A stretch of DNA of 64,000 nucleotides, taken from NCBI GenBank assembly GCA_023091665.1, contig JALJCQ010000024.1, forward strand, positions 868,001 through 932,000, in the 5' to 3' direction. The notes under the pieces are model-generated. The model was not told the DNA's origin and searched no databases. It saw only the letters and a program-made list of their open reading frames with translations. This DNA comes from Pythium myriotylum. Lineage: Eukaryota > Oomycota > Peronosporomycetes > Pythiales > Pythiaceae. This document shows positions 2,553 to 61,712 of the stretch, one piece after another. The translations under genes and the position numbers were made by a program. How positions within the stretch are numbered: position 1 is the first letter of the stretch; every line of letters starts with the position of its first letter.

Positions 2553-4756
2553 AGCAACTTCAATTGAAGTCACGGGGCCGTTCACGTCATTCGATCTTCC
2601 GGTGAGGCCTCCATCGGGTGGAGCTAAACGCCGTATCTACTACAAATAGCGGCCAAGTGGAGTACAGAGGCCTAATCGGCGGCCTCCAGGTCGACCACTC
2701 CCTATAGCTCAATCGGGCTCTTTACGGTCTACCAAAAAGCACGCAAGCGCGCAGACCCATTGGAAGTCCACAAGCGGCTACATCGCCAACAAGTCCGCAA
2801 CAAGAAGACTTACACTCCGGCCAACCTGGCGACGAATACGCATGTCACTTTTCAAGTCTTCCTCTCCTCGCGAACAATCCATACTCTCTAGTGCTCTGCC
2901 TCTTGCATCTTAGTGAGACCATTTTCCCCAGCTGTCTCGATCCCTCCATCGCCGAGCCTCTCCATCTAAACCGGCTCACTCTGCCTCTCATAGTCTCATA
3001 CTCAACCACCTCACACCGCACACGACTCTGGAGGGACACAAAGTGGCCCTACACCCTCCGCGCTACCTACTGGGCAGCGAGAGTCCTGCTCCAGGACGGG
3101 TAGCATGCCCGTGGGTAGTACCCACACCTCACACACATACATCACCAGAAGCAACACCCCTACTTCACCCACTCCACCCTGTCGACCCTGTCGACCCCCA
3201 GCTTCCACACCTACCGACAACTCATTCTACAACTCGCCTCGTGAATCCCACACGACCCACCCACCAACCAACCAACCCAACTACTGAAGACGAGGTCTCC
3301 AGTCCAACCCCACCCACAGTACCCGCCTCGTCGATACTGTACCACCGCTATCCCGACTCGGCCCGTCATCACCATGCGCGCCATTGCCATTCTCCGCTCC
3401 CTGCTCGCCACGGCCTTCGCTGTCCTCGCTGCCACGTCAACCGACCTGGCGGCCGCGCAGAACTGCGTCTCCGTCGCCGTTCAAAGTTCAACCGACACCA
3501 ACTCTAACGCCAGCGCCAACGCTCCCTCTTCTTCGGATGTCTCCCCCGACACGCCCATCCAAGACGGCACCGTCGTCACGATCGTCGTGAAGCTCAATCC
3601 GAAGTACGCCAAGAACCCACCCGCCGAGGTCGAGGTCTCGGCGCCCGGACTGGTCTGCGCCCGCTCCAAGTTCGCCTTCTCCAAGACCAAGAAGGCGTCC
3701 CACACGCAGCGCGCCACGTGCCGCACGCTGACCGGCTCGGCATCGGCCTCGACGCCCGACGGCAGCGTCGTGGACATACCCGTGACGCTTGCGTACAAAC
3801 GGGGCCCGCGAGCTACTGACGAGCAGAAGCTCAAGCGCAAGGTGATCAGCTCCGGCAGCTGCTCCGGCTGGGGCGACCCGCACCTCACCACGCTCGACGG
3901 CGTGGCCTATGACTTCCAGAAGCAGGGCGTCTTCAAGTACGTCGAGGCCGGCAGTCTCCAGGTGCAGATCTTCCAGGAAAAGTGCGGTGACGTCGCGCGA
4001 CTCAAGGACGCGGCGCCTAGCTGCTACCAGGGCGTCGCTGTCGCCTTCGGTGCCTCGCTCGCACGCTTCTTCATCGTCGACGGCAAGCTACAGGCTGCGC
4101 GCGCCTCGGCCTCGCTCCAGTGGCTCTCGGTCGAGCGCCTCACGTCGACCGCTGCGCAGGGCTTCCGCGTCTTTGCCAACGTCGACCACGCCGCCTACGT
4201 TGATATCAATCTCAGCCAACTTAAGGACTACCCGCTCATCAATGTCGCGCTGCAACTCTCACCCTACTTCAAGACTGGGATCGGTGCCGGAGCCGGAGCT
4301 GCAGCTGGGAACAGGACTGCGACTGCGACTGCGACTGCCGCTGGGAATCCTGCTAGTGCCCGCGACGTCATCTCCGGACTCATGGGCAACTGGAACGGCG
4401 ACCGCAACGACGACATCACCGACAACGACCAGCTCGCGAAACTCCACGGCATCTCTCTCGACCAGAACCTCTTCACCTGTGCGGACGCGACCGCATGCAA
4501 GCCCCTGCTCAAGTCATGGTCACGCCAGGATTCGAACGCGCTCGCGATCACGCAGGCGTCGCCCAACGGCTCGCAGCCGCTATTGCATCAGGGTTACGCT
4601 CCGGTTAGTCTGGACGCCATTCCGCTTGGCAGCTTCTCGCCCAAACTGCGCGCGCCGTCGCTCCGCCAGCTCGGTCAACTCGGCCGGCTTGGTCAGCGTG
4701 AGAGCGAGAACCTACGCGGCAGCGAAAGCGAAAGCGACAGTGATATGCAAGCCCGA
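2553..4756. repeat. Right arm of large inverted repeat
   Basis: This is the reverse complement of 1-2204. It spans 820 bp of upstream sequence plus the first 1383 bp of the right VWD-EGF gene. The gene continues past the visible arm end because the left partner is cut by the window, so the repeat may be longer. Confidence 0.95.
3083..3125. promoter_or_regulatory. Three adjacent dyads upstream of VWD gene
   Basis: Three short inverted repeats follow one another about 250-290 bp upstream of the VWD start codon. They are GTCCT/AGGAC at 3083-3097, CGGG/CCCG at 3097-3111, and the perfect 15-mer GTGGGTAGTACCCAC at 3111-3125. Dyads of this size can be binding sites for dimeric regulators. That function is inference only. 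The mirror copy lies at 1632-1674. Confidence 0.3.
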
Positions 4757-5380
4757 CTCCTGCAAGGCTCGGCGGAGTACGTGGCAGGCATCGTGGCGGC
4801 GACCCCAGATGGCGCCAAGTCCAACGATGCGGTACGTACAGCGACTGCCTCGACGTCGATGGCCGTCACAGGCAACAATAGCGCCACCAACGTCACCGAC
4901 AAGCCCATCTCGACGCCAATTTCCACGCTGTCATCCACTCCCACTCCCACGCCAACTACTTCAAAGCCGAACTCCGACGCCGCCACCAACAACGTTGTCG
5001 ACGTCACGCCACGTGCCACTCTACTCTGCCAGCAGGTCATTTCGGCCATCGCCACCACTTGCGCCAAGTACGTAAGCGACACGGATCACCACATCCACTC
5101 TCGATGCATCGCCGACGCCGCGCTCCTCCAAGACCTCACCATCGTCGACAGCGCCAAGCTCGGCTACTTGCGCGAGTGCCGCCGCGAGCTCGACGCGCGT
5201 CTGTCGTCGCAGACAGCTACCGCCGCGGAGACCGCTGCGCTGCAGAAGGATCGTGACGCGCTCTTCTTCGGCGATCTGTCGCGCTGCGCCAACCAGTGCA
5301 GTGGTCGTGGCAAGTGTCTCGCGGCCGGCTGCCAGTGCGACGCTGGCTACACGGGTCTTGGCTGCGACGTCAAGATTTAA
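3374..5380 (+). CDS. Secreted VWD-EGF repeat-linker protein, right copy
   Basis: This is an uninterrupted 668-aa gene. The ATG at 3374 starts a clear signal peptide (residues 1 to about 28, ending ATSTDLAAAQ). A von Willebrand factor type D domain begins near residue 162 with CSGWGDPHLTTLDG and ends near the GNWNGDRNDD motif, a typical VWD arrangement. A Ser/Thr/Pro-rich low-complexity linker follows. A cysteine-rich segment then leads to a C-terminal EGF-like module (CSGRGKC, CQCDAGYTGLGC). The protein is predicted to be secreted or wall-associated. Two further copies occur here, an identical partial one in the left arm and a diverged one at 61704-63815. The biological role is unknown; adhesion or extracellular matrix function is inferred from the domains. 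Confidence 0.9.
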   Translation: MRAIAILRSLLATAFAVLAATSTDLAAAQNCVSVAVQSSTDTNSNASANAPSSSDVSPDTPIQDGTVVTIVVKLNPKYAKNPPAEVEVSAPGLVCARSKFAFSKTKKASHTQRATCRTLTGSASASTPDGSVVDIPVTLAYKRGPRATDEQKLKRKVISSGSCSGWGDPHLTTLDGVAYDFQKQGVFKYVEAGSLQVQIFQEKCGDVARLKDAAPSCYQGVAVAFGASLARFFIVDGKLQAARASASLQWLSVERLTSTAAQGFRVFANVDHAAYVDINLSQLKDYPLINVALQLSPYFKTGIGAGAGAAAGNRTATATATAAGNPASARDVISGLMGNWNGDRNDDITDNDQLAKLHGISLDQNLFTCADATACKPLLKSWSRQDSNALAITQASPNGSQPLLHQGYAPVSLDAIPLGSFSPKLRAPSLRQLGQLGRLGQRESENLRGSESESDSDMQARLLQGSAEYVAGIVAATPDGAKSNDAVRTATASTSMAVTGNNSATNVTDKPISTPISTLSSTPTPTPTTSKPNSDAATNNVVDVTPRATLLCQQVISAIATTCAKYVSDTDHHIHSRCIADAALLQDLTIVDSAKLGYLRECRRELDARLSSQTATAAETAALQKDRDALFFGDLSRCANQCSGRGKCLAAGCQCDAGYTGLGCDVKI

Positions 5381-15004: not shown

Positions 15005-16144
15005 ATGGTCGCCGAGAGCTCGCCGCCTGCTGCTGCCATGCCGCGAGTGCGCGGCGCCGCGTTCTTCCGCGCGCTCGGCGCGCCGCAGCGCGTCGTGGCG
15101 CCCATGGTCGACCAGTCGGAGCTGGCCTTCCGCATGCTCACGCGCCAGCACGGCGCGCAGCTCTGCTACACGCCCATGTTCCACAGCCGGCTCTTTGTCG
15201 AGAGCGCCGAGTACCGCGCCAAGATGTTCGAGCAGCATGTGCGCGACCGCCCGCTCGTCGTGCAGTTCTGCGGCAACGACCCGCAGACCGTGCTCGCGGC
15301 TGCGCGCCACGTCGAAGGCCACTGCGACGCCGTCGACCTCAACCTCGGCTGCCCTCAGGGCATCGCGCGCAAAGGCCGCTACGGCTCGTTCCTCATGAAA
15401 GAGAAGACCGTCGTGCGCGACATTGTCGCAACGCTCAGCCAAAACCTGTCGATCCCCGTGACCGTCAAGATCCGCGTCTTCCCGGACCGCCAGGAGACGC
15501 TCGAGTTCTGTGATATGCTCCAGGAGGCCGGCGCCGACTTGCTCTGCGTCCACGGACGCACCAAGGAGATGAACAAGACGGCCGTGCGCGAGTGCGACTG
15601 GGATATCATCCGCGAGATCAAGAACCGCTTGTCGATACCCGTGATCGCCAACGGCGGTATTGAGACGCCCGAGGACGTTCAACGGTGTCTCGAGGCTACG
15701 GGCGCCGACGGCGTCATGTCCTCCGAGGCGATTCTCGAAAACCCAGCACTGTTCAGCCAAGACGAAGCGGCCAAGTCGCTGCGGTACGTAGACATGGCCA
15801 AGCAGTACCTCGACCTCACGCTCGAGTACCCACCGGCCAGCGAGAAGATCATCCGCGCGCACCTCTTCAAGCTCGTCTTCCAGGACCTCATGGTCCACAC
15901 AGATCTCCGCAGTAAACTCGCCAGCGTGCGAAGTCGCGAGGAGATGGTCGCGATCGTCGATGAGCTTGACAAGCGTGTGACCGAGACGCCTATCGAGTAC
16001 TCGAAGGAGAAGAGCTGGTACCGTCGCCACCGTCGCGGCCAGGAGAAACTCCAAGAGCGAGAGAACCAGAAGAAGCGCTTGCGCGATGAAGCTGGTGAGA
16101 CAAACGCTGACGAACAGCCTGAGCTCAAGGTTGTTGCCGCCTGA
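15005..16144 (+). CDS. tRNA-dihydrouridine synthase (DUS1-like)
   Basis: This gene encodes a 379-aa flavoenzyme that reduces uridine to dihydrouridine in tRNA D-loops. The TIM-barrel Dus signatures are present in order: VAPMVDQSELAFRML (about 31-45), the catalytic-cysteine motif NLGCPQGIARKGRYGSFLM (Cys116), VKIRVF, LLCVHGRTKE and IPVIANGGI. The C-terminal third is charged and ends in a KK/RE-rich tail. Eukaryotic DUS1-type enzymes usually modify U16/U17, so that site is the best guess. The ATG at 15005 is used; a second in-frame ATG follows 33 bases later. There are no introns. The gene ends 85 bp from the convergent SET-domain gene. Confidence 0.92.
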   Translation: MVAESSPPAAAMPRVRGAAFFRALGAPQRVVAPMVDQSELAFRMLTRQHGAQLCYTPMFHSRLFVESAEYRAKMFEQHVRDRPLVVQFCGNDPQTVLAAARHVEGHCDAVDLNLGCPQGIARKGRYGSFLMKEKTVVRDIVATLSQNLSIPVTVKIRVFPDRQETLEFCDMLQEAGADLLCVHGRTKEMNKTAVRECDWDIIREIKNRLSIPVIANGGIETPEDVQRCLEATGADGVMSSEAILENPALFSQDEAAKSLRYVDMAKQYLDLTLEYPPASEKIIRAHLFKLVFQDLMVHTDLRSKLASVRSREEMVAIVDELDKRVTETPIEYSKEKSWYRRHRRGQEKLQERENQKKRLRDEAGETNADEQPELKVVAA

Positions 16145-16229: not shown

Positions 16230-19200
16230 TCATGAGTTGAGCCCCATGCCCCACCCGAGCTTGGCCCGCCGCTTGCTCGCCGGCTCATCGAGTCCGCTCG
16301 AATGCGAGGAGCCGTTTGCCTCGCCGCCCAAGACGACATCCTGCAAATGGTCGGGCAACGGCACGTAGTCGTCGTCTTGCACGCCGTTGCCTTCGTCTTC
16401 GTTAGCTGAACTGGTGCGACGCGATGAACTGCTTGAGTGTCGACGCGACTTGGAACTCTCCGTCGACGAAGCCGAGTCGGGACGCTCGTACTCGGATGTT
16501 CGCCGACGCTTTGCAGACGCGGCCGACGCCTTCATGAGCTGGTGTTCCAGCTTGCGTCGTTGGGCGTCGAACGTGGATGGTAGTGCCGAATAATCCATTT
16601 CCTGCCGAGGGCCTTTGCTGAACTCGGCGAAGTACTCCATCTCTAGTAGCTTCTTCGCGCTACATCGCTTGCTCGGGTCGAGCTGCAGCATGGCCTCCAG
16701 CAGATCGATCGCCTCCGTTGGCACCGGCAGGTTCTTGTCCTGGCGGTGCTCGAGCAGCGTCTTGCGCAGCCGCATCTTGTACTCGCGCTTGGGCTTGAGA
16801 GGTTCATACTGCGAGAGCTTCATGCCATCGGGCCACATGATACTAGGCGTACCGCAAAGACGGAAGATGAGATTAATTTGGGCCTTGAGGTCGGCACCCT
16901 GCAGTAGTGGGATCGACTCGAACAAGAGCATCAGTGCCACGCAGCCCGCTGACCAAATATCGCCCTTCATCGTGAATGTGCGATCACCAAGCAACACTTC
17001 GGGCGGCGTCACCAGCATCCACGAACCGTGGCAGTGCTCCTTGCGCTCGCTGTCGCTCATCTCATACCGACCAGAGTCTCCGCCCTTTCCAGCCTTGAGA
17101 CTGAGCTTGCGGATTGCGTGGTAACCACCCAGGCGAATTCCATCGGGAAACACGAACAGGTTACACGGGGCCACATAACGGTGGACGTAGCTCCACTCGT
17201 GGCACAAAGCAATAGCACTGATCATGTCAAAGATCGCTCGCTTGCGCAGTGGCATCGGCACGTACGTCCTCGAGTCCAGCAACCCGGAGTACAAGTGAAG
17301 CGGCTGGTCGAACGCGCAGTAGTGTCCTGTTTTCTTCAGCTGAGCTTTGATGGTTTTCTCATCCTCAAAGGCCATAGAGAAGTCTGTATCCTCCCCAGCC
17401 TTGTCTTCGTTCGGAAAAACAATGCCTGCGAGCCCAAGGAAATGTTGCGGCGCGCGCGAGGTCATGATCAAAGCAGTCGATAGCTCGCGAACGCACGCTC
17501 TTGAAGCTCCAGCCTTTGCACTGAACACAGGTTCGTGCTCGCGGTATGGCCACGGCAACAGGAATAGCGGTTTGCCTTTCAGAGTTGATCCCTCGAGCGA
17601 TGAAGATACAGTTCCGAGAAATGTTCGCTTGCGAATTTGATAAGAGTTCTCGATATCAGACACATGAAGCCGTGGTGGTCGGTGCAGTTGGTCATGGCCA
17701 CCCTTCGGAGCGGGGTCGAGAACAAGCACTTCGCTGGCTTTAATTGCTGGCGTGTCACGAGGCACAATATTGAACGATCCGGTTCTTCGCCTCTTCTTCA
17801 GCTCGCGCAACGTCATGTGGGCTAACTGATTACTCATCGCAGCTTCGTTCTGATCGTTCTTGAGATCAATCCACGTCTTTAGGAGCATCGTAATGCGTTG
17901 TGTGATTTCAACCGGCTTATGGCGTTGTACGGCAAACTGTTCGGTATCAAAAATGTCCGGGTCGGTGCGTCGAGAAGCCATACGCGCTGCAATCGCGCTG
18001 CCTTCAAGTCGCACCCACCGCTCTTTTAGATTGTCGACAATGAACGAGGCGCAGTCCAAGAGGTCTAGCGCATCCTTCTCATTGTTCATCACGTCAAGAG
18101 TTGGTAAAAAAGCAGGAATAGGGGATGGAACAAATTGTTCATCACTACCCGAGAAAGTCAAGGCTGTGGTCACGGCTGCGCCAATGTAGACGATGCTGAG
18201 GATCACGCACTCGACCGATGTGTGAGCCCATACGGGTAAACGCAGGGTCTCCGACAGCAAGTGTTTGGCTTCCTTCTGCACATCTGTTGGCATAGGTGGT
18301 TGTGACTTTGCACCGGCAGCTGATGCGTCGAATTTTCTGCGGTATTTGCTGGTCGATGTCAACATGTCCAACAACCCGTAAGGATCCTCACTGGAGATGT
18401 CGAACATCAGCCCTTCAAGCAAGTCTTTCTCCGTCTCCATGACCTGACGCTCGCATCGTTTGAACACTTCACTGTCTGAATTAAGCTTTGGCGCAGGTGC
18501 CTTCGGATCTCCACTTGGATATTTCGCCGCATAGACTTCGGAGATAAACTCAGGCCACGCGATCTTCCTTCCATGCGCCTTAAGATAAATGTGCAGCATA
18601 CCCGCGGCCATGAATTCGACATTCTGCATGGGAAAAAATGTGAAGTAGCGATGGAGTGCAAGGATTGAGCTTGGAGCGTCTTCTCGCTCGAGGTGCAGAG
18701 CCTTAGCCACCTTCGTGATCACGTTCACATATTGTGCACGCATTTTTTCTTCGAGTGAAGCAGACGTTCCTTTCCGTCGACTCGGTGAGTCTTCAACGCG
18801 CTCGATTGTGACGAGCCAGTCCAGCGCTCGGCCGTACGGGTATGGCTTCGGGACCACCAGCTGTTGAGAAGTGGCGCCGCTTTCACCCCGAAGACTTGCC
18901 AGAATCTTGTTTTCTTCTCTTCGGATCGCAGCGTTTCGTTTGGCTCGCTCGTAGTTATCCACTTCTCGGCGTCCTGCGTGGAACACACGCAGCGCTTGGC
19001 CCAAGAGATCGCGCGAGTTCAAGTTCCGACGAAAGTACTTAGGGTAGTATGGGTCTGAAAACTCTATCAGTGCCCAGCCCGATGTCTCATCGAAGAAGAA
19101 ATAGTCGAGCTTGACCACGATTGCATCAAGCGACTGCTGCGCAACGACGCTTGAGTGCAGTTTCTCCAACATAGTCGAGGAGCGCTGTTTACGAGGCGCA

Positions 19201-20826
19201 ATGAACAGCTTTCGAAGCAAAGCCTCGTCGCATTTCGCCGGTAAACCTTTGATCAGAAGCTTATTGGTGACGATGTCACCGTCGTGGTCAAGTAGCTCGC
19301 CATCTTGATCGCGCCGCTCTTCTCGTACGACTGGAACACTAGGTAACTGGGACATTCCAGCACCAGGAGTCGACGAAGGGGTGGTCGACGACTGCGAAGG
19401 CGAGGTCGTCGCAGCAGTTTGGTCTGATTTGCCTGGTGAGTCACCTGGCGTTCCACTGGGTCGCCGCTTGGGGATTGCGAACACGGCCTTCTCCAGCTGG
19501 TCCTCGGTGAGCCCAGTCAGCTCCACAAAGATCTGCCAGCTCCGTTCACCGAGCTTGACAACCGGTGGATTGCGAGGCTCGTCCATTGCCGACAGCGGCG
19601 AGTCGAACGCTGCATCCTGCGGTGTGCCAACTTGGTCGCCGTACTCAAGTTCGTACGACTCGTCCTCAGCGTTGTATCCTCGCACCGTCGCGATCGTGTA
19701 TATTGACGTGTCTGACGCCGAAAGGAAAAGACGGAGATGGCGCCCAATGAGAGCCTCTCCACTCTCCTCCTTGGTGGGGTCTCGGTAGAATCCTCGCGGA
19801 CCGTTGTCTACGAGCGTCTTAGTCGGGTCGGACTCGGAGCCGATCACGCCCTTGCAGTTGGCCGAGCCGCAGTAACACTTGATTTGCATCGAGCCGAGCG
19901 ACTTCCACTGGTAGTCGAACGTGAGCTCTTCGCGCGCCTGGATCGGCCGCAGGGCCACGACAGCGATGCGTGTCTCGCCGTTGACCGTCCACTTCTCGGT
20001 CTTGCAGTTTGGCTCGCAGCTGTGGTTCACGAAGCGAGTGAAGCTTCCTTTATTCCGCGCATCGATGTACACGCCGGGTTCCAGTGCCAGGTAGTAGAAA
20101 TTGAGCTCGTGCTAGCGACAAAGCATTTCGATAAGTAAAAAAAAAAAACACTCCTCTCGCCTTTCGGTCTCCCTTCCAATTCAGTGCCATGCTTACCCTC
20201 GGGACGCCCTTGAGCCGCCGTTGGAGTTCTTTCTCGTCGATGATCTCACCGACGTACTCTCCGATGACCGTGTGCTGCTTGATCTCACTTCGTGCTCGTA
20301 CACCGAAACCTTTATTCTCGGTCTACAGATCCACCATCCATGCATCAGCGACGAGTTCGTACGGGGAGCGGACAACCGGGCGCCACGCCAACGGCACCTT
20401 AAAGGCCTCGAGCTCCGGGAAGCGTTGCGGGTGCTGGAGGCGCTGGTTCTGGCAGAACTTGCCGGCGTCGCACTTGTCCGGGCTGCACTCGATGTACGTG
20501 GCAAAGTTGAGGCAGCTCACGTCGTCGCAGCGGCTCGTGTCGTCGTCGTCGTCGTCGTCGTTTGGGAACGTGCAGTAGCAGACGGCGTCGGCGTCGTCGG
20601 GCTTGAAGAGCTTGTCGCGCGGCAGGTGCGCGAGCGGGTACTCGTTGCGCGAGATGAGCGAGACGCCGCGGATGGCTTCCAGGTGCTCGAAGCTCAGCGC
20701 CTCGGCGTCGGCGCGCGGCGCGTCCTCGTCGGCCGACGCGTCGCTGCTGTCGGCGCTCGAAACGGAGCGAGATCGCCGCCGATTGCGACGGCGAGCACCG
20801 CGTTCGTCGCGCGAGCGTGCGCGCAT
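16230..20826 (-). CDS. SET methyltransferase fused to RRM, cyclin and CDK-like pseudokinase
   Basis: The model encodes 1478 aa in three exons: 20398-20826, 20197-20322 and 16230-20111 (introns 75 and 85 bp). An acidic/Arg-rich N-terminus leads to an AWS cysteine cluster (C83-C125), a SET domain (about 144-262, with GFGVRARSEI, GEYVGEII and NHSC at 214-217) and a post-SET CYCGSANC, an arrangement typical of H3K36-type methyltransferases. An RRM-like region follows (about 466-566). Residues 643-838 resemble a transcriptional cyclin (LHRYFTFF, LLEGLMFDISSEDPYGLLDML). A CDK-like kinase fold occupies about 1003-1390, with TPPEVLLG and DIWSAGC. Its catalytic loop reads HRYVAPCN instead of HRDxxxxN and the DFG site reads LGGY, so it should be catalytically dead. 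The C-terminus is Ser/Arg-rich. Exons 1-3 restore a continuous AWS-SET sequence, which supports the splicing. Confidence 0.85.
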
Positions 20827-26078: not shown

Positions 26079-26752
26079 TCTCACGCCCTGACTCGTTAAT
26101 GGAGACCATGCTGCGACTGGTGACCGGACGTCTATATATATCTATATACATCCACTAAATCTATAATCACATTTGGTCTCAAAATACATAGACTCCCCCC
26201 CAGCAGCCCTCAGCCCTCGTCCAACCCCCTCAACTTCCCACCTGGGACCTGCCTGGTGTCTCACCCTCGCGACGGCTCTCTCACGCGCCTGACGTGACGT
26301 CGACTCCACGTCGAGCTCCTCAAAACGGAATCTCTCCTCCCTCTATGCAACTTCGACATGTATGCGCATCAAGAAAACCTCCACTCGTCTTTGTTCTGGT
26401 GCTGGACTGTCCGCCGTCGCTTCTCCATCTTTCTTTATACTTGATCCCACTATCCCCCCATCACATCCACATCCCACATCATCCCTCCTCCTCCCCCCCC
26501 ACCACGAGAATCCTCCTCGAGTGGACGCAACCCTACCCCGTCCGCTTCCAATCCCCCCAAGCGGACGGGTTTGCCACGGAAAACACAAACCCGAAAACCC
26601 GTCCGCTCCGAAAAACTGAGCTTTTTCGCCCCCAAAGGATCCACCACAAAAAAGGCAAGGTGCACCCCAGACCTCGTGAGCAGCTACGAGCAGCTCCCCA
26701 TTGCGGAATTTCACGTCCCAGCCACAAGCCCTTCTTCCTCTCCACAGCCACC

Positions 26753-27826
26753 ATGAGCAAGCTCGACCGCGCCGTCTACGACCAGTACATGAAGCTCCCG
26801 CAGCCCGAGAACATCGTGCTCGCCGAGTACGTCTGGATCGGCGGCTCGGGCCAGGACTTGCGCTGCAAGACCAAGACGCTGACCAAGCCGCCAAAGTCGG
26901 TCGCCGACCTGCCCATCTGGAACTTTGACGGCTCGTCGACCGGCCAGGCGCCCGGCGAAGACTCGGAGGTGCTGCTGCGCCCGGCCGCCATCTTCAAGGA
27001 CCCGTTCCGCGGCGGCAACAACATCCTCGTGCTCTGCGACTGCCTCAAGCCCGACCTCACGCCCATCGCCAACAACACGCGGGCCGACGCGGCGCGCGTC
27101 ATGGAGGCCGCCAAGGACCACGAGCCGTGGTTCGGCATTGAGCAGGAGTACACGCTCTTCGAGGCCGACGGCGTGACCCCGTACGGATGGCCCAAGGGCG
27201 GCTTCCCGGGCCCGCAGGGTCCGTACTACTGCGGCGCCGGCGCGCACTCGGCCTTTGGCCGCCTCATCGTCGACGCCCACTACCGCGCCTGCGTCTACGC
27301 CGGTGTCAACATCTCGGGCGTCAACGCCGAGGTCATGCCGGGCCAGTGGGAGTACCAGGTCGGCCCGTGCACGGGCATCGAGTCGGGCGACCACATGTGG
27401 ATCTCGCGCTACCTGCTGCTGCGCGTGTGCGAGGACTTTGGCGTGATCGTGTCGTTCGACCCCAAGCCGATCCCGGGCGACTGGAACGGCGCCGGCTGCC
27501 ACACCAACTACTCGACCAAGGCCATGCGCGAGGAAGGCGGCATGGCCCACATCATCGAGGCCATCGAGAAGCTCGCGCTCAAGCACAAGGTCCACATCGC
27601 CGCCTACGGCGAGGGCAACGAGCGCCGCCTCACGGGCCGCCACGAGACGGCCTCGATCGAGTCGTTCTCGTACGGCGTCGCCAACCGTGGCGCCTCGGTG
27701 CGCATCCCGCGCTCGGCCGAGGCCGAAGGCAAGGGCTACTTCGAGGACCGTCGTCCGGCCTCGAACATGGACCCGTACGTCGTGACCTCGCGCATCGTCA
27801 AGACCACGATCCTCAACGAGGCATAG
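26753..27826 (+). CDS. Glutamine synthetase type II
   Basis: This gene encodes 357 aa, the usual length of eukaryotic cytosolic GSII, without introns. The enzyme makes glutamine from glutamate, ammonia and ATP. The ATG at 26753 is in a good ACC-ATG context. GSII signatures are all present: [63 protein letters not shown] and SVRIPRS. No targeting peptide is evident in the 357-aa product. The open frame extends about 460 bases upstream, but that part is Pro/Ser-rich leader sequence and not conserved GS. Strong codon bias toward C/G third bases suggests high expression. Confidence 0.97.
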
Positions 27827-31997: not shown

Positions 31998-34672
31998 ATG
32001 ACGGCGCGCCGCCCCAACGAGACCTCTCCGCTGCTGCAGGGCCGCTCGCGCGTCGCGCCCGCCACCGGCGCCGCCGCCAGCGCGTACGACGCCGGCCGCC
32101 GCCAGCTCCATCGCGCGCGCTACGCGCTCATCCCGCTGCTGCTCGTCGCCGTCGTCGGCATCCTCTGGGCCTTCTCGGACGACCCGAGCTCGCACAGCTA
32201 CCGCATGCAACACCTGCGCGCGCCGCTCGTGAACAGCAGCGGCTTGTCGGACGCGCAGCTGCTCCAGCTCGCGCCGCCGTTCTCGGTCGCCGGCCACCCG
32301 CTCGCGCCCAAGATGCTCAACCGCTCGGCGTTCGCCGACCGCGCGATCCCGACCAATGCCTACTGGACCAACCTGCTCATCGGCGACGACCACGGGATGA
32401 ACGTCGGCGCCGGACCGGTCACGCTCTCGCCGTACACGGTGCGCTGTCTGCCCAAGCGCCTCGACATCTCGTACGGAGACTCGCGCCGAGTCGTCACGAG
32501 CGGCAACGTCACCGAGTACTTTAACGTCGACGCCGCGTTCACGGGGTACGCCTCCAAGGCCGCGCCGGGCGAGAGCAAGCTGCTGGGCGACGGCAATAGC
32601 ACGTGGCGAGAGGTCGTCGCGTTCGACGCGCACTCGGCGCTCGTGCAGTACCGCTTCGACAACGTCTCGGTGCGCGGCGAGCCGTGGACGCAGCCGACCC
32701 AGTGGATGAACGCGCTCATCGTGCGCGGCTCGCCGTACGTGACGGTCGAGTACGCCAACATCATCCCCGTGCTCGAGTTCAACGCGACGGTCTACTCGAT
32801 CAACAACGTGCCGGTCCAGGAGATCACCGAGCCCGTCGCGAGCGAGGCGCGGCAGCAGTGGACGGCCAAGCGGTTCGAGATCGACCTAGGCGTCTACGGC
32901 GCGACCAAGGCCGTGACGCGCCAAAAGTGGGTGCTCTACTTTGCGAGCGAGCGCACGCTGCAGCTACAGCTCGCGAACGAGAAGGATTACCGCTTGTACA
33001 ACTTGCGTGACGAAATCACGACGCCGACCAACATCCGTTTGGTCGACACGGACTTCTACACGGGCGCCGCACGACTCGCGATCGTGCCGGTGGTCGGCCG
33101 AGATGGCGCGGTCGCGACGCTGGACGCGCACGCGAGTGTGTATCCGACCTCGATGTCGGTCAAGACGCAAGTCACAGATCTCACGGCGCTGGTGACTCTG
33201 CACTGGGACGCGAAGACGATCTCCGGTGCTCCGGTTTCGGCGAGCGATCCTCCGCTTCTGCAGCTGGCTCATCCGCACCATGTCGCGTCGTTCAGCAAGA
33301 CACACCAGACGGACGGCTCGTTCAAGGTCGTCGATCCGGCTTTTGGCCACCGCACGGTCAAGTCTTACATGACACCAGTCATCGGCAACTCGTGGGTTCT
33401 CGAGGAAGAGCTTCCTGATGTGGGATTCAACGGACCGCAGAACGAGATCGACCGCCTCCGTGCACAGCCAGCGTCGGTCGAGGCCATTCTGACTGCTCTC
33501 CGCAACGACTCCAAGTATTCTCCGGAGGCCCAGGACCCGTACTACTTTGGCAAGGAGATCGGTCGACAGGCACGGCTGATTCTCATCGCTGACTTGCTGG
33601 AGAAGGACAACAAGACGCGCAACAAGCTGCTCGACGACTTGGAAGAGTGGGTCGCGCCGTGGCTCGTTGCACAGAATGACGATCAATTCATCTACGAGAA
33701 GGATTGGGGCGGACTGTGCTCGCTCAACGGCCTCAAAGGTGTCTTCTGGATGACGGATTTCGGCAACGGCTGGTACAACGACCATGTAAGTTGTGTGAAG
33801 GTGTCTTGCTGGCTCACCATCGCTGTCCTTACTGACTTGACATCATCCACCAGCACTTCCACTACGGATATTTCCTATACGCGCTGGCAGTCGTGGCCAA
33901 GTTCCGCCCAACGTTCGCTCATACCCACAAGGCCGCGATCCTCGCGATCGTACGTGACATTGCGAACGCCGACCCCACCGAGTAAGCTTTCTTCACCATT
34001 GCCTTGTGGCTGTCATTGGATGCTAATGAGGCCTTCTTTTCTCATTGCAGTGCGTACTTCCCATTCACCCGTCACTTTTCCTGGTTCGACGGCCACTCGT
34101 TCGCGAGCGGCGTGTACCTCCTCGACGGCGGCAAGTCGCAGGAGTCAGTCAGTGAGGCCATCAACGCGTACTACGGCGTCTATCTCGTGGGTAAAGCACT
34201 CGAAGTCCCCGAGATCGAGCACATCGGCCACGTTCTGATGACGCTCGAGAGCCGTGCCGCGCGCACGTACTGGCAGATGCCGTCCGACTCGACGATCTAC
34301 GAGCCCGAGTTCGCGCAGAACCGCATGATCGGCCAGATCGCGGCCACCAAAGTGTCGTACACGACGTGGTTCGGCCCGGAGATCGAGCACATGCACTTGA
34401 TCAACATCATGCCGTTCACGCCGGTGACAGCCACGTTCATGGCCCCGTCCTACGTCGCCGAGGAGTTCCAGGTGCTCCAAAAAGAGGCCTTCGAGCGAGA
34501 GGTGAGCCCGATCGAAGACCGCTGGAAGGGGTACGCCTACCTCGATCTCGCCATCATCGAGCCGACGAAAGCTTGGGATCTTGTCCAGCAACTCAACTTC
34601 TTTGACGATGGCAACTCGCGCGCGAACTCGCTCTTCTGGATCGCTACTCGACCGAATGTGACTGCTACCTAA
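31998..34672 (+). CDS. GH81 endo-1,3-beta-glucanase, membrane-anchored
   Basis: The model encodes 845 aa in three exons: 31998-33785, 33854-33981 and 34051-34672 (introns 68 and 69 bp, GTAAGT/GTAAGC donors). It hydrolyses internal bonds of beta-1,3-glucan. A short cytosolic head is followed by a transmembrane helix (about 42-59, ALIPLLLVAVVGILWAF), so the catalytic domain should face outside. GH81 signatures are seen: PTNAYWTNLL near the start, YNDHHFHYGYFLYALAV across the first splice junction, and GKSQESVSEAINAYYG (E670/E674) holding candidate catalytic acids. With the GH72 cluster it points to wall beta-glucan turnover in growth or zoospore encystment. It is convergent with the VPS13-like gene, 97 bp apart. 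Confidence 0.93.
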
Positions 34673-34769: not shown

Positions 34770-37700
34770 TTACACAAACTCACACGCGATTCGAATCTTG
34801 CCGGCCTTCACAGCATCTGCGTCCAGCCTGAAAGTGTTGCTGCGATCAGCGCCAATCTTCGGAGTACCTGTCTTCGGGGTGCTAGCTTTAGGCGTTCCAG
34901 CAGGTGCTCCCATCAGTGCAGACGCCGCAGTTGCACCAACGACTTCAACCTTGAGCTTGATGAAGCCAATTACGTCTCCTGTCACGTCCTTCGTCTTTCG
35001 CACTTCGACCTCCTGCTCAATTGGGGTTCTCGTCGGCTTAAACTGCAGCGGAAGGTTCGCGTAGCCGATAGTTTCATCGTGAAGAACGCTCTTGTCCTTC
35101 AAAGAGAGCGTAACTACAGGGGTCGCACTGTCAGCATCCTTCTTCAGGACAGTGAACGTAAACAGCTCGTTCCACGAAGTGTTAGCCTTCTGATTGGCTC
35201 CCGAGCCGGTGAAAGTCACCTTTCCGACGTGCGTGCGTTGTTTGTCCTTGGCGACGTGAACAGAGACGTACGGAGAGATGTTCGGTGTACTGCTCACCAA
35301 ATTGCCCAACCCAAGCACGCCACCGCCACTTGAACTCGTCAGCTTCAAGTCGCGCAATGAAGTGATGGTTACGAGCACCTGAACATCGTCTTGTGACAGC
35401 TTAACCTTCGCAGGCCCACCGAGTCCTAGCATCGCCGTAGCAGAGCCAACTACGGCTGCTGCGCCACTTGAAGCTTCGTTCTTCACGAACAGAGTGTATT
35501 CCTTCTCTTTCACCACGTTGCTCACATTCTTCTTGGTCTCAACTGGCTTGACGCCAGTTCGTACCCACTGAGCAAGGCTCGATGAATACTCTGGTGGTCT
35601 GAAATCGTCCTGGAGATCATCCATCGAAACCGCGCATTTGCCAATAGTCCGCTCAACCGCTCCACCGTACGAATCCTTGACGACAAACTGGAACTCGTTC
35701 TCTGCGCCAGTGAGTTCAATTTGCGTTTTCTCCTGCCAAACAGGGTTCAACGTGTTGTACAAAACACGAGTCTTCAAGACAGGCCTCTCATCAATCCGGA
35801 CAATACACTTGGGATCACATGAGTCGTCGGAGAGCAAACCTTGAGCGCTAACAACCTCCAGGAGGAGGCGTGTTGGGCGGTAGTGCTTCTCATCGAAGTC
35901 CGCCACTACGCGATTGCCTTCGACCTTCTTTGCTAGGCGACGGCGGCCACCAAAAGGTGATCGATCCACAACTGTTGACTGGACGCCGAGAGCCACATTA
36001 TGAGTCGTGGAAGTAATCTGCTTGAGCAACACGACTCCTGGACCAGCAATACCCTGAACGGTACCTGATAGAAGACCGGTGATACCACCTTTCTTTGCCC
36101 CCTCAACAGGCTTGGTGAAGATACCAGTCAAGCCTTTTCCTAGGTCCTTCGCAAACTTGAGACCGCCTCCACTCGAGGGCGAGTCTGCTGATTCACCAGC
36201 TGCCTGATTAGTGTCTTCGTCTTCTTGCGCGAAATCACCGACAAACTTGTCCAAGGACCCAGTGATCTTCGCCAGTGTCGACGCACCCGTCTGGGCAACT
36301 GTCTTACCGAGCACCTTAACACCTTCGCCACGTGTCTCTGACTCACCAAGAAGCTCACCCTTCGTGATCTTCAAGAATTCAACGACTCCAGATCCGAGAT
36401 CCTCAACCAAACCAATCGGATCACCGATGATATCAGCGCTGCCGATGAGGCGGTATGCCTGCATCACAGCCTGACGCACAAAGTTCTGGATCAGTTGGCT
36501 TTGGAGGCGTTCTTGCGTTGAGAAGCATCGCTGAATAACGATCTCGCTGAATGATAGCGTTGGAGATCCACTGAGATTGGAGCCAATTAGACCAATCACT
36601 TGAGTAATCAACCCAAAGATTACTGAGTTGCCTCCACCAGCATTCGAGACGATGTCCTTGCGCGTGATCGAGTACTCGAGATCGATGGAAAGTGCGCCAA
36701 TACGCAAGAGGTCGAAGTAGAGTAGGTTGTGTCGAATGTTGCCATCAGCAGTCAACTGTGCAGCTGGGACTGGTGGTACCTGGCGTTTCAACACCCGATC
36801 CAACGTTTGCATTGACGCGATGAGCATAGCCGCGTCTGACGCTAGAAACGGCTCCACAAGTTTCACCAGATTCACGATGTAATCAAGATCAACCTTGAGC
36901 CCCAGACTGTTGAGTTGCAAGTCGAGCAACTTATAGATGCCGATCTTTGCAGCTAGGTCAGCATCCACGACAAAATTGACGAGAGGCTTAGGGGGTTTTC
37001 CTGCGGTCTTGTCGCTGAACCCAGAGTTGAGCGGGTTGAGAATGACAGGGAATTTTGCGTTTGGAAGCATGTTATCGATCTGGCTGTGGAATATTGAGAA
37101 AGCCCACTCGAGCGATGATGGCACTTTTTGAACCTGGATGACATCCACGGACAAGAAGAACACCTCCTGAGGCAACGTATCGAACAGCGACAGACCGAGC
37201 CCAGCAATACGGATGTCAAACGATGAGGCGAAAACCATCTTGCGTTGCTCAAACTCTTGCTCAAACTGTGCTTCTTGGTTTTCCAATCGGCTCATCTCAA
37301 GTTCCTTACCGATGAACTTCAGCACGCGAGTACCTTCGTCGACAACTGTTTGTACAATGATCTCTACACGTTCACAAACGTTGCCATCGGCACCCTTAGC
37401 TTCGTCCAAAACAATCGAGTCGTGGTAGCCGACTGCATCAACGTCATACTTCTTCTCCTTTGAGCGCCCATCTGAGTGTTGCAGTCGGATCTGCATCTTG
37501 TGCTCCTTTGACAGAGAGTTGCTCCACGCAAATGCGTACCAGTCGCCATTCTTCACGGTTCTTGCGGATACGGTAGAGGCAGCCTTGAACAGAGATGAGT
37601 CGGTCGCAATTTGAGAACAATCTATCTTGTATGGAGTGAAGTTCTCAATGCGATATGGAGGAGATCCAGACGAGTCGCTGAGAATGACGTATACGTACAT

Positions 37701-40700
37701 CTCAATAACTTGCACACTCACGAGGCAGATGATGTAGCGCTGGCGTAGTTTCGAATACAGCTGGATGTAGGAGTCGCCAGCAGTACTGACAGGTATCGCG
37801 TGCGACCACAATTCACCCCACTCGTCCGTAAACGAAATCGAGATGTACTTCTGGCTCTGGGTGAGAACCTCTCCCTTCTTCAGCGGGAAGAAGTGGTACA
37901 TAGGAGTTGATTCGCCTGTGAGCACGGATGACATAGCGATCTTTGCTTCTTCTTCTGTTCGCTTCGTCTTGAACAGTTGATCGGCGTTCTCTACAGATTC
38001 ACTTGTATCAAACGCCTGAACAAAAACCTTCTCCTTCAGTCGGTTCTGGACGTAGAATCGTGGGCTCACAGTGAGCGCAATGCTCTGTTCAAACGAACCA
38101 TAGAGACCTTCGATCTTGACTCCGAATACACTCGGTCCGCACGTTAGTTCACCGATAGTGTTGACGGTTGTAGAGTTCATTGGTTCGGACCAAGTTGCAG
38201 CCTTCAAAGCCACATCTGTGACAGGGTTCGAGGAGTATGCAGAAGCGGGAACCTTCCCTAGCGCATTCCATCCAGCTGGCCTCTTTCCTGTCATAGCGAT
38301 CGGTTTAAAGCTCACACGATCATGCTCCAAGGTGGTCATACGAGGATACTGGAATGCCTTGGTGCTCTCTAATGCCTCAAGGTCACTTAGCTTGTCGCCA
38401 GGAGCTGCCGACGCGATAGACAGATCCAGCGAGGTATTGTTTACAATCCAGTACGGGGAAGAAAGACGGACCAATCGAGGCAAGTTCTGTTGAGTGAGGC
38501 GATCAAGTCCAAATTCAACCCCTGGCGCGAGTTCAATCGTTTCACGCGCAATAGAGAATGATTCGATCGAACCGTGAATGGCCATCAACAAAGGCTTCGA
38601 CCATGGTGACTTGGCCCGCGTACCTGCTTCATCCCTAGACTTGCTTACAAGTCGCAGTGAAAGGTATCCTGGAGCCAAGCAAGAGATACCCGTTATTTCA
38701 GCGTCGTGTCCAGATGAGACACTACCGCTGATGACATCGGACGTCAGCTTGTCGTCCGGGGCCTTCAATGAAGCTTCGATAGCTGCAAAGTCGGCGTTGA
38801 TATTGCCCGACTTGACCTTGTACTCAACAAATCTGTAGTCAACTTTGTACGGGAGCGAATTGCGAACGACGAACGGTGGGAGGAGTGACATTTCCCACTC
38901 GAAATGAGTACGCAAATGCCAGCGACGGAGAATCACACCTGGGGAGAGTTGCTTGATAACCTTCGAGTTGTTTTCTTGAGTAACACCGTACGCGATTGCA
39001 CCACGTCGTTGCTGCAGCGACGCCTTCATTGCCTTATCTTGTTCATCAATATCTTGAACCGCAGCAGCACTTGTCATCAGATCGTTGTTCAGCGTAGCTT
39101 TTACAATCCAATCATTGAAGTGGACTGGTCGTGCATATAGCTCAGTGATACCCAAGAGAACAGAGATCGGAAGCGCAGTTCGTTCACTCGGGCTCAAGTG
39201 GATGACCTCCGACGTTACTGCTGGTCGCTCCGTTGTACCGATCTGCAAATACTTGAGTTCGTAGTTCTGGGAGCTGTGGTTGCACACGAACACATTGGAC
39301 TTGAACACAATACGTCGGTGAAGAGGATCTTCAAGACGACAGTAAGCCGAGACAAACAACTCAACGCCAGGTGTAGAGTCGCTAGCAATTCTCACGCTCT
39401 TGATACCAAACGAAGGTAGCACGGTGGCCTCCTTGCTGTGACCCCAGGCCTCAAGCTCAACACCATCAAGTGTGGCAGTACCGTCAGCTGCCACCTCCAA
39501 TTTGGTAGACGCTCGCTGGTCAGCGTGCACCTCAACTCTTTGACCAGCAACAACGACAACCAAGTTGCATCCCGTCGAGTTTTCAATGATGCAGTCAGGG
39601 TTCTCCTGGCTACTCGCGATGAGACCTGACCGGAAAGCCTCTTGGTGTTTCTTCCACGACGCTCGAGCCTGGTCACCGGACGTAACATCGTTTAGTGCCC
39701 GATACATCTTCAATAGGCCAGGAGTCACGTTGATCTGGAATCGCTTCTCAGCTTCAACTAGGACTGCTACGCCATTCTCTCCGAGTGAGGATGAGACAGC
39801 AGCAACGAGTTCCCATGGTTCGATAATGTCTTCCATCGCGTTCGCGAGATCGCTGTAGCTCATCGCCTGGATGCGGACACCAAAGAGAGCAGTCCACTCC
39901 GAGGAGCCAGAGGTTGCGACGCCAGTCCAATCAACTGGCCCACTGGCGCTGATGTCGCTTGCGTTCATCTCTGCAGAGACCTTCACCTTCTGGATCGCGA
40001 AGAATCCGCGACTGTGTTGAACAGGTAGTTCCGGGTCGGTAAGCACAAAACGAAGGTTACCCAGTTTGAGATCTGTTGAAAGCTTGAGTTTCTTCTTCAC
40101 AATCGGGCCCGTTTGAACCTGCAACATCTTCTCTTCAGCCTCGCGCAACGCTGTGGCAAATATCGTGTCTTTCTTCTGGCGAGCGATGACCTTAGCAGCG
40201 TTCTGATACTCGCTGATTCCTCCACAGTACATCGATGGTTGAATCAGCCATTCGGACTTCTCCTCGACTGGAAGTTCCGGTAAAACTAGCAGGTTCCAAC
40301 TCAATTCGGCGGCATCATAATTTCCGAGAAGGCGAATCAGCTTCTTTTGTACATCAAGACCTCGCTGTCCGTTTAGAGTTGATTTCGTCGCGTGAATTTC
40401 GCTCTCATACAGATCGAAAAATCGACCCTTGAAGAACGGCTTTGAAATAATTTCCTCCATTTGCAATTTGCTGGTTGGCTTGACTCCTCCGCTAAGTTTC
40501 TCGAACTCATCGGTCGATCCATACTCCCCACCACGCAAATTTAGGGATCCGTCAAGTTCTCCGCTTCCGGCAGCTCCAGTCATGGCTGTGCCATCACTCA
40601 GCACATCTTCGCGCAAATACATACGGAGCTCTTCGAACTCAATGTACCCGTTTCCGTCACGATCAATTTCCTTGAATAGCACTCGCACGAAGTACTCGAG

Positions 40701-43340: not shown

Positions 43341-44819
43341 GGCTTGAAGCACACGGCTAGCAGCAGCTAGAGACGGCGGAGCCGGTGCGAGCGAGCGCGG
43401 CGTCGTAGCGGGTCGGAGGGCGGCGGTAGTCACGGAGCAAGCACGCTCCGTTTCCCTTTTGTTCTTCTTGGTCGCCTCGCAAAGGGAGAAGTGGTGCTGA
43501 TGGAATGGAAATGACAGGTGAAGGATCGTGCAGGTGACGTGAAGGTCGCACGAATCAGTCAGACGAGCGCTTCAACTCATTTTCGAACCGCGGCGCTCTA
43601 TTCAGTGTATGCAGGTTAGTCTACGCCCGTTGTTGAAGAAGGAATATGGTCTGGGAAAGGGGGGAGTCGTACCTTCGCGTCACCTTGATGTATCCACCTC
43701 AAGTCACCGTTGTCGCCAGTGGATCCTTCCAGCGTGCGCCAATGGAAATGGAGCCCGAGAGAGATGCAGCCCCCGGGCGCAGCTGCAGCTCGGCTCTGTG
43801 TCGCCGCACCATGCAACGCGTCTCGTCTACAAGATCCCAAAGCTCGCCGGTGCATGGACATGGAGACAGGCTCGTCAGACGATCGACTGGAAATGGAACA
43901 TGAGATACCGTGGTGGAAGACGTCGGAGAGCGGAAATTGGCATGGCAGGTACATGCGCTGTAGTGGTTGGTCGAGGGCGCGCGAGCGCTACGTAGAGAAG
44001 CGAAGAGAACGAGGATCGCGCGGCTGCACAAAATGGATTTTGAGTTGGTGGCGGATGAGGACGGGAAGAGCGTTTTGGATGCTTACGCTGCGCAGCGATA
44101 GGGGGAGGGTGCGACGGGATCGAAGTCGAAGCACCGCCACGAAGTCGAGTCGCATAGTGACGATGGAAAAAATGTAGGGAATCTTCGTGTTGACGCGTCC
44201 CGCGTTGCACGTAGAGGGCGGAAATCATGGGAAGCACGAGAAGCCGATGTTCGATATGCTCGCCTCGCTCGACGCTGAAGACAAGCAAGTCACAATGACC
44301 TGCGATGCGGACGGATGGAGGCGTCGGTCGGCAAGCGTTGGTGCCAACAACAACAAGAGCTTGGAGTGCACCACCACGAGTGGAAATGGAGGTCCGATGG
44401 AGCGAACTGCTCCACGCGGTCTCAGTCCCCCACCTTTGGCAACAACGTACTAGTACGAAGTACGGTTGCAAAATGTACCAACGCGATTACACGAAGCGCT
44501 CTCAATCAGCCACACAATGATCTCTATTTCCTCCCGAGAGCTCGCCCACGACTGTGATCTCTTGGCGAGTGAGTTGTCCGAGTCTCGAGTTCTTCCATGT
44601 GAGTCAAGCCAACGACTTCAAGTTAATGCTCTACCCACAATTCAATGAATTGAAAATGAATTGAATATTAGCCTCCGTGGTCATTCCGTATTAGGCTAGC
44701 TTGGTCGTCCTCCGTTTTAACATCCTCACCATCACTCTTCCATATCTTCTTTCAGAGTGAATGTCACCCAAGGACCATGGGAGCTCCTCACGAGCTCAAG
44801 AACGAGCTGCTTGCTTGCG
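43341..44819. other. Divergent intergenic region
   Basis: This 1.48-kb interval lies between the VPS13-like and sphingomyelinase-like start codons. Many short frames overlap on both strands, none with recognisable domains. A more AT-rich stretch (44630-44740) may be the core promoter of the right-hand gene. Confidence 0.5.
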
Positions 44820-61703: not shown

Positions 61704-61712
61704 TTAGATCTT
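61570..61712 (+). repeat. Degenerate AGATCC-type repeat
   Basis: Short motifs such as AGATCC, GGATCTTG and AGATCCCAAG recur about a dozen times with irregular spacing. The stretch reaches the 3' end of the VWD-EGF gene. Confidence 0.5.

Follow-up and report, generated by a model that had tools for sequence, protein, structure and literature searches.

What is a histone methyltransferase doing in one chain with a cyclin and a cyclin-dependent kinase (CDK) whose catalytic residues have changed? The question is raised by a gene in a 64,000-nucleotide stretch of Pythium myriotylum DNA (the window; contig JALJCQ010000024.1), part of a 58.7 Mb assembly. The coupling of methylation of histone H3 at lysine 36 (H3K36) to transcription is known chiefly from animals and fungi, where the H3K36 writer relies on the activity of CDK12/CTDK-I, and in yeast the modification requires the CDK12-like kinase Ctk1. 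It is close to certain that the Pythium gene encodes a fusion of this architecture. As for its role, we put at about 0.45 the probability that the protein is an H3K36-type methyltransferase with built-in RNA polymerase II (Pol II) targeting, through a docking module formed by a dead elongation-type cyclin–CDK pair.

The third exon of the predicted gene is a single uninterrupted frame of 1293 codons, stop included, in agreement with a preliminary description made from the sequence alone, which had placed the protein in one frame of exon 3 plus two short exons. Both exon junctions are free of gaps in an alignment with six oomycete orthologs. From the N- to the C-terminus the domains are AWS-SET-postSET, a Tudor-like segment with weak support, an RRM fold, a two-lobed cyclin and a CDK fold (Table 1). 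The SET, RRM, cyclin and kinase domains had all been named in the same description and are variously supported by Pfam, by a cyclin profile of relatives and by predicted folds.

Table 1. Features of the fusion gene and of its neighbours, in window coordinates
Feature	Position	Strand	Remarks
Fusion gene	20826-16230	minus	3 exons, ATG at 20826, 1478 aa (predicted model)
Exon 1	20398..20826	minus	Disordered start and AWS domain
AWS match within exon 1	about 20431-20547	minus	Pfam AWS 2.2e-11
Intron 1	20323..20397	minus	75 bases, GTGCCG...CTGTAG (predicted)
Exon 2	20197..20322	minus	SET domain, first part
Intron 2	20112..20196	minus	85 bases, GTAAGC...CGCTAG (predicted)
Exon 3	16230..20111	minus	Remainder of SET, post-SET, all C-terminal domains, stop included
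SET C-terminal part (NHSCEPN, ELTFDY) and post-SET cysteines	19814..20111	minus	Pfam SET 6.9e-17; SETD2 PDB chains 9.4e-28
Tudor-like small beta segment, residues about 305-343	19638..19754	minus	Strands at model residues 11-15, 24-33, 38-43; predicted local distance difference test (pLDDT) 75-86
RRM fold, residues about 469-563	18978..19262	minus	Structure prediction and fold comparison
Cyclin, two helical lobes, T/K/L class, residues about 636-933	17868..18761	minus	Profile matches, helical prediction
CDK-fold pseudokinase, residues about 996-1360	16587..17681	minus	Pfam Pkinase 4.1e-14, fold search, alignment
C-terminal motif KLGWGMGLNS	16233..16262	minus	3' of kinase; near-identical in the Peronosporales and Pythiales orthologs compared
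Dihydrouridine synthase (Dus)	15005-16144	plus	Pfam 5.6e-77
VPS13-like protein	34770-43433	minus	About 2887 codons; EF hands and C2 domains (Pfam)
Glycosyl hydrolase family 81 (beta-glucanase)	31998-34238	plus	Pfam
Glutamine synthetase-like protein	26294-27826	plus	Weak N and C domain matches
VWD and teneurin-type EGF protein	3374-5380	plus	
VWD and teneurin-type EGF protein	61704-63815	minus	

Judged by its sequence, the methyltransferase is best explained as an AWS-SET-postSET enzyme of the SETD2/NSD/ASH1 group, with SETD2 as its best match. AWS, SET and post-SET stand in tandem as in SETD2/Set2, the portion of SET encoded by exon 2 is matched by Pfam (2.4e-5) as is that in exon 3, and the best sequence matches in the PDB are SETD2 (99.5 bits), NSD2 (90) and ASH1L (78.5). 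The enzyme would presumably be specific for H3K36. No match to an SRI or WW domain was found in the fusion protein (Pfam, E <= 1).

A profile of this region built from eight relatives matches cyclin T2 (4.3e-13), cyclin K (2.7e-12) and cyclin L1 (9.7e-11), all far above cyclins D1 and C, and the cyclin K match spans both lobes (positions 13-217). Pfam Cyclin_N is matched by all eight members of the relatives' alignment (E <= 0.1). The predicted model over the cyclin and kinase together has a predicted template modelling score (pTM) of 0.73, suggesting that the cyclin and the dead CDK may pair with each other.

The kinase fold is confirmed by structure prediction and fold search, the nearest kinase being CDK12/13 by sequence, and CDK12/13 tied with CDK9 by fold. 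The preliminary description had read HRY and GGY in place of HRD and DFG, with PPE and DIWSAG present, and had linked the protein to Pol II elongation kinases. The alignment bears out each motif (HRY at residues 1162-1164, GGY at 1180-1182, PPE at 1221-1223 and DIWSAG at 1236-1241), the structure prediction that it had proposed as a check returned a CDK fold, and the elongation link is supported by the closest classes of both kinase and cyclin. The position of the beta-3 lysine (VAxK) falls in LFLLPWP (residues 1034-1040) and the glycine loop is unrecognisable; the RE of the PSTAIRE-type helix is retained together with PPE and DIWSAG.

These changes are shared by the family. When 54 fusion kinases were aligned with two active kinases of the P. 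myriotylum genome, the HRD aspartate and the DFG aspartate were each present in none of the 54, which include P0063 even though it aligns poorly at both motifs, while the Pro-Glu of APE was retained in all 54 and the aspartate of DxWS in 52. In the first family alignment, of 39 oomycete rows, all 37 rows covering the cyclin-contact helix have its Arg-Glu, and the beta-3 lysine position is Gln in 35/37 and Leu in 2/37. An LQxWP-like stretch at beta-3 is seen in 66 of 75 SET-plus-kinase proteins, diatoms among them; the pattern was missed in P0047, P0058, P0060, P0068, P0071, P0074, P0096, P0105 and P0122, the last of which does have SLQRWP, outside the stretch searched. Its loose form is also present in 11 of 60 further proteins, which include SET-less pieces of the fusion family.

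An active kinase was rejected, as the positions of the Lys, the HRD Asp and the DFG Asp are all changed. The same three changes and the loss of a recognisable glycine loop make it very improbable that the protein keeps an unusual catalysis, as WNK, CASK or AMPylating pseudokinases do, although the kinase fold has been retained, with 41-62% identity by lobe to the six orthologs. As the adjoining linker is only 8-20% identical, the conservation of the lobes points to selection on the dead kinase.

Is the arrangement peculiar to this species? The preliminary description had supposed that this organism in particular had hard-wired its methyltransferase to a cyclin and kinase, which proved too narrow, and the survey of other stramenopiles that it recommended found the same order in Peronosporales, Pythiales, Albugo, Saprolegniales and diatoms. 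A first homolog search yielded 38 proteins, and those with a named source are all from oomycetes (Pythium, Globisporangium, Phytophthora, Nothophytophthora, Peronospora, Bremia and Plasmopara), and a search with a trimmed alignment gave 12, four of them new. A query with the SET portion of the P. oligandrum ortholog produced 163 matches, the best 120 of which were listed; among the matches listed this adds Albugo, Aphanomyces, Saprolegnia, Achlya and Thraustotheca, and also the diatoms Cyclotella, Cyclostephanos, Discostella, Fistulifera and Amphora and the bolidophyte Triparma.

A set of 134 proteins was surveyed with domain profiles derived from ten oomycete rows, nine of them database proteins and the tenth the window protein. 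SET and kinase occur together in 74, 67 of which have the cyclin too (E < 0.01), and the order is SET-cyclin-kinase in all 67. Among the 48 SET proteins without a kinase match the cyclin was found in one, the partial diatom protein P0093, and at E < 0.01 it was found in none of the NSD, ASH1 and SETD2 rows from animals, plants and fungi in the set. When oomycete and diatom profiles were compared, the cyclin (probability 96.3) and the kinase (99.9) both matched, a comparison in which any two CDK-like sets would match. Since other water moulds and diatoms have the order too, the enzyme–cyclin–dead-kinase arrangement is, as far as these sequences indicate, an old one. The SET–pseudokinase fusion is well conserved in water moulds and is not seen in any of the relatives from animals, plants or fungi among the matches listed.

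It is barely conceivable that two or three adjoining genes have been merged by an error of assembly or gene modelling. Nothing in favour of this was found, though some database rows have evidently been merged with further genes: P0049 from Thraustotheca clavata, named as a CCR4-NOT subunit, is apparently the fusion protein joined to an adjoining gene. Mis-joined genes were rejected for P. myriotylum because the intron-less frame of exon 3 runs from SET to kinase and the SET-cyclin-kinase order is found in 67/134 proteins, from many genomes. In addition, an MMETSP transcript protein labelled complete (P0101) holds SET, cyclin and kinase in order, and the cyclin and kinase halves are related across the groups.

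A single fusion before the split of oomycetes and diatoms is the simplest reading of the sequence comparisons, given the trees, the shared order and the shared change at beta-3; independent fusions in the two groups, though conceivable, are not supported. A branch of the SET tree has 38 fusion-type rows all to one side; its support in the Shimodaira–Hasegawa-like approximate likelihood ratio test (SH-aLRT) is 72 with 67 rows, and 86 with the 65 rows left when the long P0123 and P0134 were dropped, neither value being starred. The label required three changes on this tree before P0063, P0070 and P0074 joined the fusion group. P0063 and P0074 were counted there for their kinase profile matches (2e-5 and 5e-8), and P0070, a partial Ectocarpus protein with a weak cyclin match (0.32) and no kinase match, was grouped by its place in the tree, which biases toward the result. 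The kinase tree separates all 20 fusion kinases from nine P. myriotylum kinases with a starred support of 98; neither diatom nor animal CDKs were included, and attraction between long branches may play a part.

How might such a protein act? In the preferred reading the T/K/L-class cyclin and the CDK12/13-like dead kinase would stand in for a C-terminal SRI domain. The two would pack together in the manner of CDK12-cyclin K, and the inert module would dock on the phosphorylated C-terminal tail of Pol II or on the elongation machinery, allowing the SET domain to mark transcribed nucleosomes; in oomycetes the RRM might add a contact to nascent RNA. The intramolecular pairing, the docking and the RNA contact are inferred. 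A docking device is proposed because, among the matches listed, none of the 69 proteins with the kinase has SRI, which is found in 10 others. A wider claim seems somewhat doubtful, namely that the stramenopile H3K36 methyltransferase either never possessed SRI or has lost it, and that a covalent dead holoenzyme of a kinase for the Pol II C-terminal domain (CTD), pre-dating the oomycete–diatom split, serves it as a reader of the phosphorylated tail, so that a kinase–cyclin pair would have been turned from writer to reader. If the docking proposal is true, a whole branch of eukaryotes with a writer and a dead relative of the kinase would have another route by which H3K36 methylation is coupled to transcription. 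The fusion is a clean test case for a cyclin–CDK pair as a docking module without catalysis.

The rest of the genome bears on who partners the cyclin. It holds two further AWS places (C11 and C23), 16 other Cyclin_N places, and separate CDK12-like (L014) and CDK9-like (L015) kinases with DFG and HRD-type motifs, the HRD of L014 lying at an exon edge and reading FRD in that frame. A Pol II tail with near-canonical heptads was found by a heptad query; the Pfam model gave no match to it in the genome. As L014 and L015 are kept separately, the dead kinase does not replace the active ones. The preliminary description had suggested that the fusion might recruit or allosterically regulate a separate CDK. 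Their presence, and the membership of the cyclin in the class that partners CDK9/12/13, would also suit a protein whose free cyclin recruits or activates a separate active CDK such as L014, the dead kinase being a scaffold or allosteric partner, and the whole an adaptor uniting Ser2-type CTD kinase activity with H3K36 methylation. This is unlikely, since a dead CDK in the same chain with a conserved cyclin-contact Arg-Glu would be expected to occupy the cyclin, and the other Cyclin_N places also argue against it.

The segments between SET and cyclin suggest a different role again. The RRM region is confidently predicted to form a beta-alpha-beta-beta-alpha-beta fold, while Pfam gave no RRM match in the fusion protein at E <= 1. 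An RRM was detected in oomycete-type proteins only: the profile matched 0 of 34 SET-plus-kinase proteins numbered P0054 or higher, and for diatoms a profile comparison of the SET-to-cyclin region gave a probability of 0.2, that is, the RRM was not detected. The Tudor-like segment recurs weakly among relatives and had no match in a fold search that barely covered it, the name being our own reading. With both segments placed here, they or other subunits could provide the targeting, and the cyclin–pseudokinase could be an intramolecular regulator or brace of SET with no role at Pol II. Dead kinases often work allosterically. Such a brace is nevertheless improbable, as it would have no need of a kinase and a cyclin that both fall in or nearest to transcription-elongation classes.

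Several observations weigh against the docking of an elongation-type module by a SETD2-like enzyme. The Pfam Cyclin_N match in the fusion protein (8.3e-4) lies just below the cut-off, at 19.5 bits against 23, rising to 22.9 bits when the region is scanned alone, and the cyclin region is predicted to be helical but in the fold search, run with the kinase attached, the matches listed were filled by kinase chains. Seven of the 74 SET-plus-kinase proteins (P0038, P0058, P0060, P0068, P0071, P0096 and P0105) have no cyclin match at 0.01, the miss being narrow in Fistulifera P0105 (0.013) and clear in Triparma P0068 (9.7). The diatom kinase P0075, searched alone, was closest to CDK3/CDK2-type chains and not to CDK12, which limits support for a CDK12 origin to the oomycetes. 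The fusion group stands apart from the SRI-bearing SETD2 rows in the SET tree, leaving strict orthology to SETD2 unsupported, and the genome-wide search for SRI, though negative, was run without a positive control.

At its C-terminus the protein carries KLGWGMGLNS, which may be a short binding motif and was not seen in eight C-ends compared from Saprolegniales, diatoms and others. The Dus gene converges on the fusion gene, the two stops being about 85 bases apart. Elsewhere in the window are genes for a VPS13-like protein, a family 81 glycosyl hydrolase and a glutamine synthetase-like protein; towards its two ends lie two proteins that share VWD and teneurin-type EGF matches and are possibly paralogs.

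The preliminary description knew of no protein with this set of domains. In part this had been anticipated: PITG_14137 of P. infestans, with orthologs in P. ramorum and P. sojae, was described as an N-terminal histone-lysine methyltransferase with an inactive CDK-like kinase (PMC3019232; Judelson and Ah-Fong 2010), the same pairing in one protein as in P. myriotylum. It is very probably our P0011 from P. infestans. The accessible part of PMC3019232 gives no cyclin, RRM, resemblance to CDK12 or occurrence beyond Phytophthora for PITG_14137, and to this extent the claim of novelty stands. It states that the fusion structure is absent from other species, H. arabidopsidis included, whereas we find it in Peronospora, Bremia, Plasmopara, Pythium, Albugo, Saprolegniales and diatoms. 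In the literature searched, where subscription journals are thinly covered, there was no further paper on PITG_14137, and nothing was found on the cyclin, on the RRM, on the similarity to CDK12/13 or on relatives in diatoms. These four appear to be new; the fusion of methyltransferase and dead kinase has been known since 2010. For diatoms, SETD2 homologs with AWS-SET-PS, some with extra motifs IV-VII, have been described (PMC10421102), and the terms kinase and cyclin are both absent from the main text as available.

Among known systems, SETD2/Set2 shares with the fusion protein AWS-SET-postSET, the best PDB match and the link to Pol II elongation. Animal and fungal SETD2/Set2 reaches transcribed genes through SRI on the phosphorylated Pol II tail, according to the part of PMC10421102 seen; the fusion protein differs in having a cyclin and a dead CDK and no SRI or WW match. 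Four P. infestans CDKs with C-terminal cyclin domains, confirmed by reverse transcription PCR (PMC3019232, as far as its accessible text goes), likewise join kinase and cyclin in one oomycete protein and have an altered catalytic Asp, but in them the order is kinase-cyclin, the only change is Asp to Asn, and there is no methyltransferase. CDK12/13-cyclin K, CDK9-cyclin T and yeast CTDK-I are the nearest classes for the fusion kinase and cyclin; in contrast to CDK12/13-cyclin K, the Pythium pair lies in one chain in the order cyclin-kinase, with a dead kinase and a methyltransferase attached.

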